This document shows, in pieces, positions 25,755 through 30,721 of a stretch of 64,000 nucleotides of DNA. Under the pieces are notes generated by a model that had not been told where the DNA came from, did no database searches, and saw nothing but the letters and a program-made list of their open reading frames with translations. The stretch is from Acidobacteriaceae bacterium KBS 83. GTDB lineage: Bacteria; Acidobacteriota; Terriglobia; Terriglobales; Acidobacteriaceae. Every line of letters begins with the position of its first letter. The first letter of the stretch is position 1. The stretch covers positions 310,001 through 374,000 of the forward strand of contig KB906734.1 in the NCBI GenBank assembly GCA_000381585.1, given 5' to 3'. The position numbers were made by a program, and so were the translations under genes.

Positions 25755-26258
25755 TCACTGCGCAACCGCTTTCTCCTTCAGCCACGCCTTGCCTTCGGCC
25801 GACTTCGTCCATTCGCCGGCCACCTGCCGCGTCGTGACATTCAGCCGGTTCCAGAAGTTAGTCAGCGCGATGTTCAGCACCAGCGTCGCGAGCTGCGGCT
25901 GGTCGTAGTGCTTCGCGGCCTCATTCCATATCTCATCCGGCACCGGATCGGAGCGGTCGCTCAGCCGCGTTGCCGCTTCGGCCAGCGCCAGCGCTGCGCG
26001 CTCTGCATCGGTGTAGTACGGCGCGTCACGCCATGCCGCCACGGTGAACAGCCGCTCATCGGTTTCGCCGTGCTGCCTGAGCGCGCGCGCATGCATATCG
26101 AGGCACAGGCTGCAGCCGTTGATCTGGCTGACGCGCAGGTGGACCAGGTCGCGCGTCTTCGCCGGCACGTCTCCTTTCTTTGCCGCATCGGCCATCGCCA
26201 TTGCCGTCTGTATCGCGTCCGGCACCAGCATGATCGGATTTGTCATTCTCGCCTGCAT
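25755..26258 (-). CDS. AhpD-like carboxymuconolactone decarboxylase family protein
   Basis: A 167-aa member of the AhpD/CMD family. The redox motif CSLCLDMH (Cys49, Cys52, His56) is intact, preceded by DLVHLRVSQINGC, so a peroxide-reducing or thiol redox role is likely. The ATG at 26256-26258 is preferred because GAGGAG lies upstream and family members start MQARM-like. It is divergent from an ECF41-type sigma factor, the classic partnership for this sigma group, and its upstream region carries a match to the ECF41 promoter. Confidence 0.88.
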   Translation of the reverse strand: MQARMTNPIMLVPDAIQTAMAMADAAKKGDVPAKTRDLVHLRVSQINGCSLCLDMHARALRQHGETDERLFTVAAWRDAPYYTDAERAALALAEAATRLSDRSDPVPDEIWNEAAKHYDQPQLATLVLNIALTNFWNRLNVTTRQVAGEWTKSAEGKAWLKEKAVAQ

Positions 26259-26317
26259 ATCGTTTCTCCTCGGGTTGGATTTCGTCACATCGGATCGATT
26301 TCGTCCGTCACTACGAT

Positions 26318-26344
26318 GACGAAGCCATGGGAGAGAATGTGACA
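26318..26344 (-). promoter_or_regulatory. Predicted ECF41-type promoter for the AhpD-like gene
   Basis: On the minus strand, TGTCACA (26338-26344) is followed by exactly 16 bases and CGTC (26318-26321). This equals the TGTCACA-N16-CGTC motif described for ECF41 sigma factors. The start codon of the AhpD-like gene lies 59 bp downstream, and the sigma gene itself starts just 3 bp from the -35 element in the other direction. Confidence 0.75.
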
Positions 26345-26346
26345 GC

Positions 26347-27237
26347 ATGAATGAATCGGATTTTCTGGCCTCGCAATTCGAACAGAACCGCGGCCATCTG
26401 CGTGCCGTCGCCTACCGCATGCTCGGCTCACTCAGCGAAGCCGATGATGCCGTGCAGGAAGCGTGGCTCAAACTCAGCCGTGCCGATGCGAGCACTGTCG
26501 AGAACCTCGGCGGATGGCTCACCACTGTCGTCGCGCGTGTCTGCCTGGATATGCTGCGCTCCCGCAATGCGCGTCGCGAAGATTCTCTGGAAGAGCACGT
26601 GGACGCGCCGCCCAAACCCGCAGCAGCATCGCACTCGCTCGATCCCGAACAGGAGACGCTGCTTGCCGAATCCGTCGGCCTCGCGCTCCTCGTTGTCCTC
26701 GACACTCTCGCTCCCCCTGAGCGCATCAGCTTCGTCCTGCACGACCTCTTCGCTGTTCCCTTCGAAGAGATCGCCGCCATCGTCGGCCGCACCCCCGCCG
26801 CGACGCGCCAGCTCGCAAGCCGTGCCCGCCGACGTGTCCAGGGCGCAGACACCGGTGCTCACGCCGATCTCGCCAGCCAGCGCAAAATCGTGGACGCGTT
26901 CCTCGCCGCTCTGCGCGCCGGCGATTTCAGCGCACTCGTTGCCGTGCTCGATCCCAACGTTGTCATCAGCGCCGATGCTGTCGCCCAGCCAGTCGAAACG
27001 AAGCGGGAAATCCGCGGCGCAGAGAATTGGGCGCAGGGCGCAATCGTCGCCGCCCGCGGCGCACGCGCCGCACAACCGGCACTCATCGACGGCGAAGTCG
27101 GCCTCGTCGTCGCTCCGAAAGGCCGCCTCTTCCGCGTACTTCGCTTCACCCTGGCACACGGGAAGATCGCCGGGGTCGACGTCATCGGCGACCCTGACCG
27201 CCTGCGCCAGCTCAACATCGCCATCCTCGCCCCATAA
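26347..27237 (+). CDS. ECF sigma factor, SigJ/ECF41 type with SnoaL-like C-terminal domain
   Basis: 296 aa. Sigma region 2 (about 10-80: YRMLGSLSEADDAVQEAWLK, then GGWLTTVVARVCLDMLRSR) and region 4 (about 110-165: LAPPERISFVLHDLFAVPFE, EIAAIVGRTPAATRQLASRA) are followed by about 115 residues of SnoaL/NTF2-like domain that acts as a built-in regulator in this group, with no separate anti-sigma factor. The DGGGR-type motif common in the ECF41 C-terminal domain is not obvious here. It is divergent from the AhpD-like gene. An ATG four bases downstream lies in another frame and is discarded. Confidence 0.88.
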   Translation: MNESDFLASQFEQNRGHLRAVAYRMLGSLSEADDAVQEAWLKLSRADASTVENLGGWLTTVVARVCLDMLRSRNARREDSLEEHVDAPPKPAAASHSLDPEQETLLAESVGLALLVVLDTLAPPERISFVLHDLFAVPFEEIAAIVGRTPAATRQLASRARRRVQGADTGAHADLASQRKIVDAFLAALRAGDFSALVAVLDPNVVISADAVAQPVETKREIRGAENWAQGAIVAARGARAAQPALIDGEVGLVVAPKGRLFRVLRFTLAHGKIAGVDVIGDPDRLRQLNIAILAP

Positions 27238-27293: not shown

Positions 27294-28505
27294 CTAGTAC
27301 TTGGGTATGGATGGGTCGACTTTGTCCGACCACGCCGTAATCCCGCCCGCCAAGTTCTCCACATGCTGGAAGCCCTGCTGCTGCAGAAACTCCGAAGCCT
27401 TTTGGCTCCGTCCGCCTGACTTGCAATGCACCACGATGTTCTTTTCGCGGTCCAACTCGCTCAAGCGCTTCGGCAGATCGTTCAGCGGAATCAAGTGGCC
27501 GCCGATATTCGCGATCTGATACTCATGCGGCTCGCGCACATCCAGCACAAACACATCCTGGCCCGCCGTCTGCCGTCGCTTCAGTTCCTCCGGCCCGATC
27601 TGCGGAACCCCGTTCTGCACACTCGCCACCTGCGTCGTCTCCTTTGCCGGCGGCGTGATGCCGCAGAACTGGTCGTAGTCAATCAGCTTCGTCACTGTCG
27701 GATGCGTGCCGCACACCGGGCAATCCGGATTCTTCCTCAGCTTCAGTTCGCGGAACCGCATGCCAAGCGCATCCACCAGCAGCAGCCGGCCGACCAGCGA
27801 CTCGCCTTTTGCCTCGCCATTCCCACTCAGAATCAGCTTGATCACTTCAGTCGCCTGGATCACACCCAGAAGTCCCGGCAGAATTCCGAGCACGCCGCCC
27901 TCCGCGCATGACGGCACAAGACCCGGCGGTGGCGGCTCCGGATACAGGCAGCGATAGCACGGCCCATCCGGCGCGCCGAAGACGCTCGCCTGCCCCTCGA
28001 AGCGAAAGATCGACGCATATACATTCGGCTTTCCGCTCAACACGCTGGCGTCGTTCACTAGGTAGCGCGTCTGAAAATTGTCCGTGCCGTCCGCAACGAT
28101 GTCGTAATCCTTCAGGATCTCCATCGCATTTGCCGAGGTCAGCATCGTGTTGTGCTTCACGATTTTCACGCCCGGATTCAGCGCCTGCAGCTTGTCTGCA
28201 GCCGAGTCGAGCTTCGGCCGGCCAACGTCCGGCGTCGAGTGGATCACCTGCCGATGTAGGTTGCTCGCATCCACCGTGTCGAAGTCGACCAGCCCCAGCG
28301 TGCCAACACCCGCCGCCGCCAGATAGAGCAACAGCGGAGCGCCTAGTCCGCCCGTGCCCACGCACAGCACCTTCGCCGCCTTCAGCCGCTGCTGCCCTTC
28401 CATCCCCACTTCCGGCAGGATCAGGTGCCGCGAATAGCGCGCAATCTCTTCATGCGTCAACGCCGGCAACGTTACTGCCGCTGTCGCTTCTGCCACTGTT
28501 GCCAT
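27294..28505 (-). CDS. MoeZ-like E1 adenylyltransferase with rhodanese domain
   Basis: 403 aa, activating the Gly-Gly end of a ubiquitin-like sulfur carrier by adenylation and sulfur transfer. The ThiF/MoeB domain has the nucleotide loop VGTGGLGAP (49-57), the zinc pairs CYRC (183-186) and CPVC (262-265), and the Cys of SCAEGGV (200). The rhodanese domain (about 305-400) carries active Cys361 in VVHCKSGGRS. Domain order and length match mycobacterial MoeZ, which serves CysO. It is the last gene of a five-gene operon with the carrier, JAMM peptidase and cysteine synthase. It could also serve molybdopterin or thiamine carriers elsewhere. Confidence 0.92.
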   Translation of the reverse strand: MATVAEATAAVTLPALTHEEIARYSRHLILPEVGMEGQQRLKAAKVLCVGTGGLGAPLLLYLAAAGVGTLGLVDFDTVDASNLHRQVIHSTPDVGRPKLDSAADKLQALNPGVKIVKHNTMLTSANAMEILKDYDIVADGTDNFQTRYLVNDASVLSGKPNVYASIFRFEGQASVFGAPDGPCYRCLYPEPPPPGLVPSCAEGGVLGILPGLLGVIQATEVIKLILSGNGEAKGESLVGRLLLVDALGMRFRELKLRKNPDCPVCGTHPTVTKLIDYDQFCGITPPAKETTQVASVQNGVPQIGPEELKRRQTAGQDVFVLDVREPHEYQIANIGGHLIPLNDLPKRLSELDREKNIVVHCKSGGRSQKASEFLQQQGFQHVENLAGGITAWSDKVDPSIPKY

Positions 28506-28548
28506 GATTTATCTCCTCTGGACGTCTAATGCGCCGCGTTGCATAGAA

Positions 28549-28881
28549 TCAATCAACATCTATCAGGATCGATTCGCAGGTAATTTGGCAGGAATGCGTC
28601 TCCGCTAGCTGCGTCTTGAAGTCGGTCAACTCCACGATCAGGCACAAGTCTCTGTCGGTAAGGTTAAGCGTCAGAATCTCGCCACCTTCGCATCTTCCAG
28701 TGAAATCCTCAATTGCATTGCCGTCAAAAAGCACTCTCTTAATGCCCGCCGCTCGGATGGAGACGGTGTGCAGGCTGTCGTCAACCTGTACATCTTCCAG
28801 CACGAAGTCGATCGACCCATCCACCTGACGGACGGAGACGATGGTTGACTCGTGGTACCCGATCCTTTGAGCCGATTGCAT
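28549..28881 (-). CDS. Hypothetical protein inside the cysteine operon
   Basis: 110 aa, not recognised. It starts MQSAQRIGYHESTIVSVRQV and is rich in alternating hydrophobic/polar strands (IDFVLEDVQV, ILTLNLTDRDLCLIVEL), which suggests an all-beta domain. It has three cysteines (CEGG, DLCL and two close ones in SCQITC counted as a pair) but no clear motif. Base composition is lower in GC than the flanking genes. It lies between the sulfur carrier gene (49 bp) and the MoeZ-like gene (43 bp) on the same strand, so it is probably co-expressed; a role in the pathway is only inferred from position. Confidence 0.65.
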   Translation of the reverse strand: MQSAQRIGYHESTIVSVRQVDGSIDFVLEDVQVDDSLHTVSIRAAGIKRVLFDGNAIEDFTGRCEGGEILTLNLTDRDLCLIVELTDFKTQLAETHSCQITCESILIDVD

Positions 28882-28930
28882 TCTGTTTCCCAGCCTGAGG
28901 TTGCTTCTTTGCCGTAGCTACCGCCGCAGC

Positions 28931-29206
28931 TCAGCACCCACCCGCGATCGAGGGGATGATCGACAGCGAATCTTTCTCACTCACTGCGGTCTGCTCCTTC
29001 GCATCCAGATAGCGAATGTCTTCATCGTTCAAATACACGTTCACAAACGAGCGCAGCTTCCCATCATCGGTAAACAGGTGCTTGCGCAGGTCCGGATAGC
29101 GCGAAGTCAGCCCGCCCAGCGCCTCGTGAATTGTTGCACCACCCACTTCCACCGTGTCCTGCTTGCCTGTGTACGCCCGCAGCGGCGTAGGGATAAAAAT
29201 CTTCAT
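28931..29206 (-). CDS. cysO: ThiS/MoaD-like sulfur carrier (CysO type) ending Gly-Gly-Cys
   Basis: A 91-aa beta-grasp protein, MKIFIPTPLRAYTGKQDTVE, with RSFVNVYLNDEDIRYL in the middle and a C-terminus SLSIIPSIAGGC. The body matches mycobacterial CysO (FVN-YVNDEDIR, then ILPA-AGG), which carries a thiocarboxylate for cysteine synthesis. Unusually, one cysteine follows the Gly-Gly, so the encoded protein looks like the CysO-cysteine adduct and would need trimming before activation; the JAMM peptidase of the same operon is the obvious candidate. The TGC TGA ending was checked on the minus strand. Confidence 0.88.
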   Translation of the reverse strand: MKIFIPTPLRAYTGKQDTVEVGGATIHEALGGLTSRYPDLRKHLFTDDGKLRSFVNVYLNDEDIRYLDAKEQTAVSEKDSLSIIPSIAGGC

Positions 29207-29297
29207 CGCGAATTCGTCCTCAATCTTTGTATCTCTGAGTCATTTGACTGCCCCAACTGGAGCAAGGTGGGATTCCGTCAGCTGCTTCAGCTATGAA

Positions 29298-29768
29298 TCA
29301 ACATCGAACCGCATCCGGAACACCGCTTCCCACCACCACCCGCTGGTCCTCAAAGCGCTTGTCTTCTTCGGTCGTGCCCGCCAGTAAAAAAGAATTCGTC
29401 ACCTTTGCGGTGCCTTGTTCGACGCTTGTAATCACATACGAGCAGCCGATCCAGTGCGCCTCTTCAAAGTCTGTCTTCGACCACTGCGCCGGATGGTCCG
29501 GATGCGAATGATAAAACCCCACGATGTCCAGGCCGCGCTCGCGTCCCTGCCGCTGGATGCGGATCAACTCCTGCGGAGCGATGTTGTATCGGTTGTGCGC
29601 AGAGTCCGTGCGCGTGTTCCCCGCTTCGACAGCCGACTCGACCGTATTGCCCTGGTCATCGCTCCGACCCAGCAGTACCCCGCAGCACTCGTGCGGGTAC
29701 GTGCGCTCACCATGCCGGCGGATCGTCTCGTACAGTTCGCCCGAAATAGTCAGCGTTGTTGCGCTCAT
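29298..29768 (-). CDS. JAMM/Mov34 (M67) metallopeptidase, Mec+-like
   Basis: 156 aa with a complete JAMM zinc site: Glu27 in PHECCGVLLG, then HSHP (His87, His89) and Ser97/Asp100 in the PAQWSKTD segment. In Mycobacterium the counterpart Mec removes cysteine from CysO-Cys. The ATG at 29766-29768 overlaps the stop of the cysteine synthase gene by 4 bp, so the two are translationally coupled; the frame upstream has no family match. The likely substrate is the carrier encoded 91 bp downstream. Confidence 0.92.
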   Translation of the reverse strand: MSATTLTISGELYETIRRHGERTYPHECCGVLLGRSDDQGNTVESAVEAGNTRTDSAHNRYNIAPQELIRIQRQGRERGLDIVGFYHSHPDHPAQWSKTDFEEAHWIGCSYVITSVEQGTAKVTNSFLLAGTTEEDKRFEDQRVVVGSGVPDAVRC

Positions 29769-30721
29769 TCTTCCCAGAACCTCTCGCTCAGATACTTCTC
29801 CGCCCCGTCGCACAGAATCACCACGATCACCGCTTCGCGCCCCTGCGCATGCTCTTCCTCGGCAATGCGTAGCCCTGCCGCAGTGGCGCCCGCTGCCGAA
29901 ACGCCCACCAGCAGCCCTTCGATGCGGCCCAGTCGCTTCGCCATCGCGTACGCCGCCTCGGTCTCCATTGCTATGTCGCGATCGGCCAGGCCCGGGTCAT
30001 AAATCGGCGGCACAATCGCAGTGGCCATATGCTTCAGGCCCTCAAAGCCGTTGAATGGGGAATCCGGCTGCATGCTGACGCACTGAATACACGGGTTCAG
30101 CTCCTTCAGCCGCCGCGTCGTGCCCACAAACGTTCCGCTCGTCCCTAGGCCGGCAACGAAGTGCGTCACCTGCCCGTCTGTCTGCTTCCAGATCTCGTTT
30201 GCCGTCCCGGGATTATTTGCCGTCCCGCGATAATGCGCCCGCCAATTCTCATCGTTTCCGTACTGGTCGGCGTAGAAGTAGCTCTTCGTATCCTTCGCCA
30301 GTTCGCGTGCCTTGCGGATCGCTCCATCCGATCCGTCAGCCGGATCCGTCCACATCACGTTCGCGCCATATGCGCCCAGAATGCGTTTCCGTTCGGGCGA
30401 CACATTGGACGGCACGCACAGCGTCACTGGAAATCCCCATGCTGCACCCAACATCGCGTAAGCGATTCCCGTGTTGCCGCTGGTCGCATCCAGCAGATGC
30501 TTCCCGCCGCCCAGCAGTCCGCGCTCGAGCGCCGCACCCACAATTCCCGAAGCCGCGCGGTCCTTCACCGACCCGCCCGGATTCATCCACTCCGCTTTGC
30601 CCAGCATGGTTATGCCCGGCAGTTCTGCCGTCAGTCGGTCCAGCCGCACCAGCGGCGTGTTGCCGATGCGATCGGCCAGCGTGGTGCCTAACATCTGCTG
30701 TGTTTCGATTGATGTAGCCAT
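29765..30721 (-). CDS. cysM: Cysteine synthase (CysM/CysK family)
   Basis: A 318-aa PLP enzyme. The cofactor lysine is Lys53 in MNPGGSVKDR, with the phosphate loop TSGNTG and the glycine-rich VAGLGTSGTFVGT. In a CysO pathway this enzyme uses O-phosphoserine (or O-acetylserine) and the carrier thiocarboxylate as sulfur source; the operon supports this, but the substrate is not proven by sequence. It is the first gene of the operon. The ATG at 30719-30721 lies 19 bp from repeat element copy D. Confidence 0.92.
   Translation of the reverse strand: MATSIETQQMLGTTLADRIGNTPLVRLDRLTAELPGITMLGKAEWMNPGGSVKDRAASGIVGAALERGLLGGGKHLLDATSGNTGIAYAMLGAAWGFPVTLCVPSNVSPERKRILGAYGANVMWTDPADGSDGAIRKARELAKDTKSYFYADQYGNDENWRAHYRGTANNPGTANEIWKQTDGQVTHFVAGLGTSGTFVGTTRRLKELNPCIQCVSMQPDSPFNGFEGLKHMATAIVPPIYDPGLADRDIAMETEAAYAMAKRLGRIEGLLVGVSAAGATAAGLRIAEEEHAQGREAVIVVILCDGAEKYLSERFWEE

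Follow-up and report, generated by a model that had tools for sequence, protein, structure and literature searches.

What does it mean that a CysO-type sulfur carrier, encoded in a cysteine operon together with a JAMM peptidase, runs past its terminal Gly-Gly? The question is raised by the genome of Acidobacteriaceae bacterium KBS 83 (assembly GCA_000381585.1), in which we analyzed a stretch of 64,000 nucleotides of contig KB906734.1 (positions 310,001 to 374,000 of the forward strand), from here on the window. The carrier gene ends with the codons GGT GGG TGC TGA (28942-28931), giving the C-terminus ...SIIPSIAGGC. The product is one residue (Cys91) longer than Gly-Gly, unlike the CysO type of Mycobacterium. 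The element in question is the following:

28934-28936, minus strand: extra codon TGC (Cys91) after the Gly-Gly codons, the one-residue tail of the carrier (read from the sequence; not conserved in relatives)

We compared this end with those of orthologous carriers. Our reading, to which we give a probability of about 0.6, is that Acidobacteriota have a CysO-type pathway in which the carrier would be made as a precursor and trimmed by the JAMM peptidase, while the codons of the tail would evolve as cis-regulatory sequence for the next gene.

Tails of the orthologous carriers

Carriers were collected from the best 80 named loci, from the 30 top loci in a draw of 396 genomes of the phylum (200 with a match) and from 60 extra stretches. 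The sample is made of best matches and the extra stretches were picked for looking like free carriers, so that it does not survey how often carriers are free or fused. The 199 carrier open reading frames (ORFs) were reduced to 186 by removing duplicates and domains shorter than 60 amino acids, and to 170 by requiring at least 115 bits. The 16 carriers under this score were counted apart, including that of locus L018, where a stop interrupts the matched frame. For the tests on codons, 110 representatives under 90% identity were drawn from the free carriers, and these gave 109 non-redundant tails.

The 170 distinct orthologues comprised 133 free carriers and 37 fusions of the carrier to the E1 enzyme. 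A tail after Gly-Gly was found in 132 of the 133 free orthologues, with a highly variable length of 1 to 31 residues. The variety was already apparent in the first 29 carriers read (that of the window included), 28 of which continue past Gly-Gly while one stops there, with tails such as C, Y, D, R, F, L, KAD, WSH, AVEYGLMI and SACCSCCPLL. Among one-residue tails, a lone Arg (12 of 29) was more common than a lone Cys (9 of 29). The latter is found in 9 of the 109 non-redundant tails, more often than a random codon would yield. In the only relative of the same genus searched (L005/L034) the Cys is kept and followed by 23 further residues. The conserved feature of the free orthologues is thus the possession of a tail and not its sequence. 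A sequence-only reading of the window had proposed that the gene product mimics CysO-Cys, and had named random residues at position 91 of the homologues as the outcome that would speak against it. The result is near to that outcome: the terminal Cys is not conserved and the first tail residue varies (C 26, S 19, R 19, T 16, A 15 and L 10 of the 132, plus others).

A quickly built tree of carrier core plus E1, holding the 132 rows in which E1 could be read, had weak support for 45 of its 129 inner branches, and the counts of changes on it do not separate gain from loss. The minimum number of state changes was 11 for poly-Cys tails, 11 for the fusion and seven for the lone Cys.

Several tails deserve a description of their own. 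In one clade (L024, L058, L069, L098, L104 and L112) the tail is a conserved octapeptide xxxxCxCS, with RCxCS in five of the six, followed by a conserved TAG CCTGG; it is the only tail seen with a clear sequence motif. The tail of L161, SPSIAGGCCCNL, repeats the cleavage-site sequence PSIAGG ahead of a CCC run, like a duplicated site. In several relatives a sequence similar to repetitive extragenic palindromic (REP) elements, CTRRCCGTCCAGGC, comes after the Gly-Gly codons; its core, CTGGCCGTCCAGGC, lies shortly past them in L083, L075, L081 and L118. This core has 101 copies in genome G195 and 16 in G036, with 0 and 1 for the reversed controls. We considered the repeat as origin of the tail in the window and discarded it, since it is not dispersed in that genome (9 copies versus 13 of the control). 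Fusions of carrier, E1 and rhodanese with an internal Gly-Gly include L017, L029, L036, L040, L048, L057 and L107, and also L120-L123, L125-L134 and L136-L141.

Cysteine codons in the tails

Cysteine accounts for 142 of the 849 tail residues of the 133 free carriers (17%) and for one of the 11,861 residues of their cores. The fusion linkers, counted over their first 12 residues, have none in 444. The enrichment extends over the whole tail, Cys being as frequent further along as at the first position, and its frequency is maximal 2-5 codons before the stop (17/80, 20/67, 18/55 and 14/51). It is also tied to the reading frame. In the 110 representatives, 128 of 710 in-frame codons are for Cys (18%), whereas the remaining frames have 24 and 18 of 710 (2.5-3.4%), the opposite strand 1.7-3.0% and the DNA past the stop 2.7-2.9%. 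All 33 copies of the hexamer TGTTGT within the tails are in frame; past the stop it occurs 4, 10 and 3 times over the three frames.

The choice of codon is equally peculiar. The tails use TGT 85 times and TGC 43 times, while in the carrier cores and the neighboring operon genes the numbers are 185 and 1409 (odds ratio 15, p 1.5e-42). Six other pairs of codons ending in C or T showed no significant shift in the tails, with 6 to 23 tail codons each. The preference resides in the tails with at least two Cys (76 TGT to 19 TGC), the nine lone-Cys tails having TGC in all cases (0 to 9). At least two Cys are present in 29 of the 109 non-redundant tails, and these have what marks a poly-Cys leader, that is, a run of Cys codons near the stop with a sulfur gene downstream. 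Selection on the peptide alone does not predict the use of TGT. The in-frame Cys codons near the stop bear the marks of selection, repeated in many lineages.

The distance to the next gene also differs. From the stop of the tail to the start of E1 the median was 103 nucleotides for the Cys-holding tails (56 loci) versus 40 for the Cys-free ones (43 loci), with p 0.001. Conversely, E1 starts at most 4 nucleotides from the stop, or before it, in 12 of the 43 tails without Cys versus 3 of the 56 with Cys (starts chosen by rule). The larger gap after a Cys tail would leave space for a leader, and closeness to or overlap with the E1 start might be another way in which a tail serves the next gene. 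Judged by titles and abstract openings, none of the papers listed by our literature searches describes tails of Cys codons on sulfur carriers.

Cysteine-rich ORFs upstream of cysD

A search for the pattern TGTTGTTGY near TAG in 15 genomes was the starting point here. Its counts were mostly below those of the reversed-pattern control, so that most of the matches are due to chance. Still, the search found short ORFs ending in TGT runs directly before cysD (two of these genes were confirmed with NCBIfam), and for this reason cysD was tested with controls. The criterion, an ORF located 10-180 nucleotides before the gene, was set after the first cysD loci had been viewed. A matching ORF was present in 7 of the 23 parsed loci of this first set, and in 194 of 20,000 random windows. 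With the same criterion and a rewritten gene-start routine, 8 of the 17 loci that could be parsed among 21 new ones had a Cys-rich ORF before cysD. When the search was anchored on the match and covered 450 nucleotides upstream, the numbers were 21 of 52 for cysD and 2 of 30 for hisG (p 0.0009), with 225 of 8,000 for random windows. These 52 loci include the two discovery genomes (L249 and L250) and second copies from some genomes, and one of the 21 cases is a carrier tail itself (L222/L179), which leaves 20 of 52 with a separate short ORF. The codon usage is again shifted, with 72 TGT to 28 TGC in the cysD set and 0 to 8 in the hisG set.

The genome of the window has one of these ORFs, ending in ...HCRPCCCACPSSHGWQFACS, 119 nucleotides before one of its two cysD genes (L245). 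In the genome of L179/L222 both arrangements meet, since a carrier with a CCC-containing tail, AGVCRAMCCCAGAHTRPRRYR, lies about 80 nucleotides before cysD. TGT-rich short ORFs of this kind were seen 70-170 nucleotides before cysD in L245, L221, L223, L228, L249, L252, L256, L270 and others. The TGT-rich short ORFs before the cysD genes of Acidobacteriota are likely, to judge from their position and codons, to be cysteine leader peptides. Among the papers listed by searches aimed at such leaders before cysD in this phylum, none describes one in its title or abstract opening.

Outside cysD, short ORFs ending in CCCCR, CCCR and CCCS were found in L212 at 2657 (plus strand), L213 at 2562 (minus) and L216 at 2514 (minus), before a gene with the look of a TonB-type receptor and before YeiH-like genes. 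As a second regulated gene YeiH had to be dropped, being preceded by a Cys-rich ORF in 2 of 30 cases in spite of the two chance finds.

The tail and the JAMM peptidase

If everything after Gly-Gly has to be removed, the tail should go along with the peptidase. The 133 free orthologues divide into 120 with a tail and a JAMM gene, 12 with a tail and no JAMM gene detected, and one with a JAMM gene that ends at Gly-Gly. Six of the 16 lower-scoring carriers end at Gly-Gly, none of these with a detected JAMM gene, and the four that have a JAMM gene are all tailed. The tail mostly accompanies the peptidase, and this would fit a trimming as known for fusions of MoaD and MoaE (PMC8832034, PMC4326299; papers given by PMC number are cited here from excerpts).

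Outside the phylum we looked at five of 19 plasmid records. The carrier of Aliarcobacter has a tail of one residue (GGI) and that of Burkholderia one of two (GGRS), both with a JAMM gene nearby. The carriers of Tsukamurella and Nonomuraea, with a JAMM gene, and that of Piscinibacter end at Gly-Gly. Hence in other phyla JAMM also accompanies carriers that need no trimming.

A residue past Gly-Gly beside a JAMM gene with a complete motif makes the exposure of Gly-Gly by the peptidase the natural first step. With 132 of 133 free carriers tailed and 37 more fused to E1, the need for such trimming is plausible in nearly all the carriers of the group. This part of the sequence-only reading, in which JAMM was required to expose Gly-Gly, therefore gains from the comparison and extends to the whole group, while the mimicry of CysO-Cys that went with it found no support.

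A model and its alternatives

In the pathway that we propose, a cut by the JAMM peptidase after Gly-Gly would serve two ends, the maturation of the precursor and the release of cysteine from CysO-Cys. The E1-rhodanese would adenylate and then thiocarboxylate the exposed Gly, and the pyridoxal-phosphate (PLP) enzyme, to go by the mycobacterial pathway, would use the carrier sulfur to build cysteine on the carrier. As the peptidase would erase all that lies past Gly-Gly, the last codons would be free of constraint at the protein level and could evolve to control the next gene in cis. In many lineages these would be TGT codons just before the stop, some 100 nucleotides ahead of the E1 start, acting as a built-in cysteine-sensing leader; in others, the carrier is fused to E1, or its stop overlaps or nearly touches the E1 start. 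Ribosomes would stall on the Cys codons of the tail when Cys-tRNA is short. We would give even odds to the part of the model in which Cys-tRNA is sensed by the UGU run past Gly-Gly, which thereby adjusts E1 or cysD downstream and is tolerated because JAMM removes the encoded tail.

Some observations weigh against this model. A JAMM gene went undetected beside 12 of the 132 tailed free carriers (several of the stretches examined being short or at contig ends) and beside six tailed ones among the 16 of lower score, and one carrier accompanied by a JAMM gene stops at Gly-Gly. No Cys is found in 47 of the 109 non-redundant tails. YeiH, the second sulfur-related family, was not enriched in upstream Cys-rich ORFs, with 2 of 30 as in the hisG control. 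No shared RNA fold, hairpin or terminator appeared in single folds of the Cys-tailed leaders or in consensus folds within one genus. Stalling at low cysteine would itself reduce the synthesis of the carrier. Finally, the tail of the window is a lone TGC, and the lone-Cys class uses TGC in 9 of 9 cases, so that the regulatory reading does not directly apply to the copy of the window.

Three other explanations have to be weighed with the same data. Were the tail functionless, made neutral by JAMM trimming, with the lone Cys of the window a matter of chance, the quick turnover of sequence and length would be expected, and the 47 tails without Cys and the overlap of some with repeat elements (CTRRCCGTCCAGGC, with its 101 copies in G195) would be no surprise. 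For the lone TGC of the window this is a live option. But drift does not yield TGTTGT 33 to 0 in frame, 18% of Cys codons versus 2.5-3.4%, or the bias to TGT, and as a general account we hold it improbable. A role of the Cys-rich tail as a peptide, for example as a thiol, metal or persulfide ligand or as a redox switch acting on the JAMM zinc site or on E1 before being clipped, would suit its position at the presumed cleavage site, and Cys-rich peptides do bind metals and sulfane sulfur. However, selection on amino acids does not predict TGT in 76 of the 95 Cys codons of multi-Cys tails when it is 185 of 1594 in cores and neighbors, nor the same preference in the short ORFs before cysD. Besides, the spacing and surroundings of the Cys vary, save in the clade with the conserved octapeptide. 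We consider such a role quite unlikely.

Equally doubtful, in our opinion, is that the gene encodes Gly-Gly-Cys so as to imitate CysO-Cys, under selection for a strictly JAMM-dependent activation and for the release of one cysteine per new carrier. A tail and a JAMM gene with its complete motif are indeed present, and the lone Cys, in 9 of 29 one-residue tails and with at least seven changes on the tree, is above the expectation for a random Cys codon. Yet the residue past Gly-Gly is highly variable, a lone Arg is commoner (12 of 29), Cys is equally frequent further along the tail, and the relative of the same genus has 23 residues beyond it. There is also a possible reason at the DNA level for a lone TGC, which in L060, L064 and L118 sits in the arm of a small hairpin, GTGC-TAGCC-GCAC, with the stop codon in the loop, although short hairpins are only moderately more common at the junction than elsewhere (24 of 110 versus 89 of 660 control positions).

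Where does this leave the carrier of the window? It has, as in QbsE, a residue beyond Gly-Gly and an adjoining JAMM gene, and cleavage there is predicted. Instead of the run of Cys codons near the stop that marks a poly-Cys leader, its tail is a single TGC. It represents the minimal state, with one TGC, no poly-Cys signature and an orphan ORF separating carrier and E1. The most fitting reading of its Cys is as one state of a tail that changes fast; it may be a chance state or the leftover of a longer Cys tail. Cys91 would be freed as cysteine if JAMM cuts there; for selection of such a release we found no support.

Should the model hold, a regulatory element would be hidden in coding sequence and erased at the protein level by its own pathway, with many state changes in evolution, and in Cys-tRNA the pathway would be sensing its own product. 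Ubiquitin-like carriers with obligatory trimming would have their last codons freed for regulation. Tailed or E1-fused carriers should then be dead without the peptidase, and the tail would be a direct gauge of JAMM dependence. The finding further suggests that cysteine leader peptides exist upstream of cysD in Acidobacteriota.

The operon of the window

The five ORFs follow one another on the minus strand:

30721-29765, minus strand: cysteine-synthase-like PLP enzyme (PALP, CysM/CysK type), first gene of the operon (PF00291, E 3e-60)
29768-29298, minus strand: JAMM/Mec-like metallopeptidase (Prok-JAB PF14464, E 6e-25)
29206-28931, minus strand: CysO/SAMP1-like sulfur carrier, 91 codons, ending IAGG-C (ThiS PF02597, E 3e-11)
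28881-28549, minus strand: orphan ORF of 110 amino acids between carrier and E1, without Pfam or NCBIfam match
28505-27294, minus strand: MoeZ/MoeBR-type E1, adenylyltransferase fused to rhodanese (ThiF PF00899, E 3e-79; Rhodanese PF00581, E 2e-16)

The operon of five genes with a carrier ending in IAGGC, as described from the sequence alone, was borne out by the coordinates, the Pfam and NCBIfam matches and the motifs of JAMM and E1. The exception is the protein of unknown kind that had been counted as a member. This orphan ORF had no Pfam match at E 0.001 and no NCBIfam match at 0.01, and it was present in one of the 61 genomes searched, its own, so that we rejected it as a conserved part of the system.

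The PALP enzyme has the motifs SVKDR and TSGNTG. It matched the cysteine synthase B model TIGR01138 with E 3e-94, yet below the cut-off of the model, and scored higher with the CysK chain 2q3b (203 bits) than with mycobacterial CysM (3dwg/3dki, 157 bits), an assignment at the family level only. Its stop is overlapped by the ATG of the JAMM gene. The zinc motif of JAMM, E...HxHP-x6-S-x2-D, is complete, with HSHPDHPAQWSKTD at residue 87 and the upstream Glu in HECCG at 26, and the best-matching solved chain was 2kcq. We infer that it is the peptidase cutting after Gly-Gly, in both activity and specificity. The carrier is a beta-grasp domain of the ThiS/MoaD family that closes with Gly-Gly (IAGG at residues 87-90). 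It was barely above the cut-off of the SAMP1 model NF041918 (61.2 bits for a cut-off of 60), and its phmmer match to CysO 3dwg spans residues 3-90. In E1 the motifs are also complete, with GTGGLG (GxGGxG), two CxxC pairs (CYRC and CPVC) and the rhodanese loop CKSGGRS, consistent with an enzyme that would adenylate and thiocarboxylate the carrier. Within the best 80 of the named matches, the closest locus belongs to a metagenome-assembled genome of Acidobacteriaceae, with a carrier 99% identical.

Next to the operon, the window contains at 25755-27237 a divergent pair formed by a gene of the carboxymuconolactone-decarboxylase family and a sigma-70-family factor with a weak C-terminal match to SnoaL-like domains. 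We take it to resemble the known ECF41 arrangement.

Comparison with known systems

Removal of residues past Gly-Gly by a JAMM protease before activation is reportedly found in QbsE/QbsD of thioquinolobactin synthesis. That is a siderophore pathway, while here the tail is not conserved and the operon is one of cysteine synthase. The cut after Gly-Gly is also shared with fusions of MoaD and MoaE, which differ in being molybdopterin synthase with MoaE as partner. In Deinococcus the fusion is cleaved by the JAMM protein DRJAMM (PMC8832034), and in mycobacterial MoaX the fused carrier domain needs a cut after Gly-Gly, by a protease unidentified there (PMC4326299).

The closest pathway is that of mycobacteria (PMC3227635), in which CysO, CysM, Mec and MoeZR are a carrier, a PLP cysteine synthase, a JAMM protein and an E1-rhodanese of the same families as in the window. 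The window differs in having the E1 gene inside the operon. Besides, the best solved relatives of the carrier (4n6e and CysO 3dwg) and the carriers of Tsukamurella and Nonomuraea stop exactly at Gly-Gly, whereas those of the group of the window are tailed. The same set of genes is the operon type 4c of Iyer, Burroughs and Aravind (2006), with ThiS/MoaD, E1-rhodanese, JAB and cysteine synthase, recorded for an acidobacterium among others (PMC1779556). Fusions of ubiquitin-like domains to ThiF were also reported there, one of which (Pelobacter) adjoins a cysteine synthase. In the excerpts of that paper we found no tails past Gly-Gly, no Cys codons and no fusion of the carrier to the type 4c E1-rhodanese.

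On the side of regulation, Cys-codon runs near the stop of leader ORFs precede cys operons in Actinobacteria, including mycobacteria, where no conserved terminator was found (PMC1262725), and tandem Cys codons precede cysS in Rhodobacterales (PMC8632094). These cysteine leaders and attenuators resemble the tails described here in that Cys codons form a run shortly before a stop codon, ahead of a sulfur gene. They are short ORFs, whereas here a structural gene closes with the run and its encoded tail is presumably clipped, and UGC is dominant in the cysS motif of Rhodobacterales while TGT is dominant here. The CysO pathway and the cysteine leader peptides were thus known; what is new is a tail of Cys codons on a carrier that is presumably trimmed by its own pathway.

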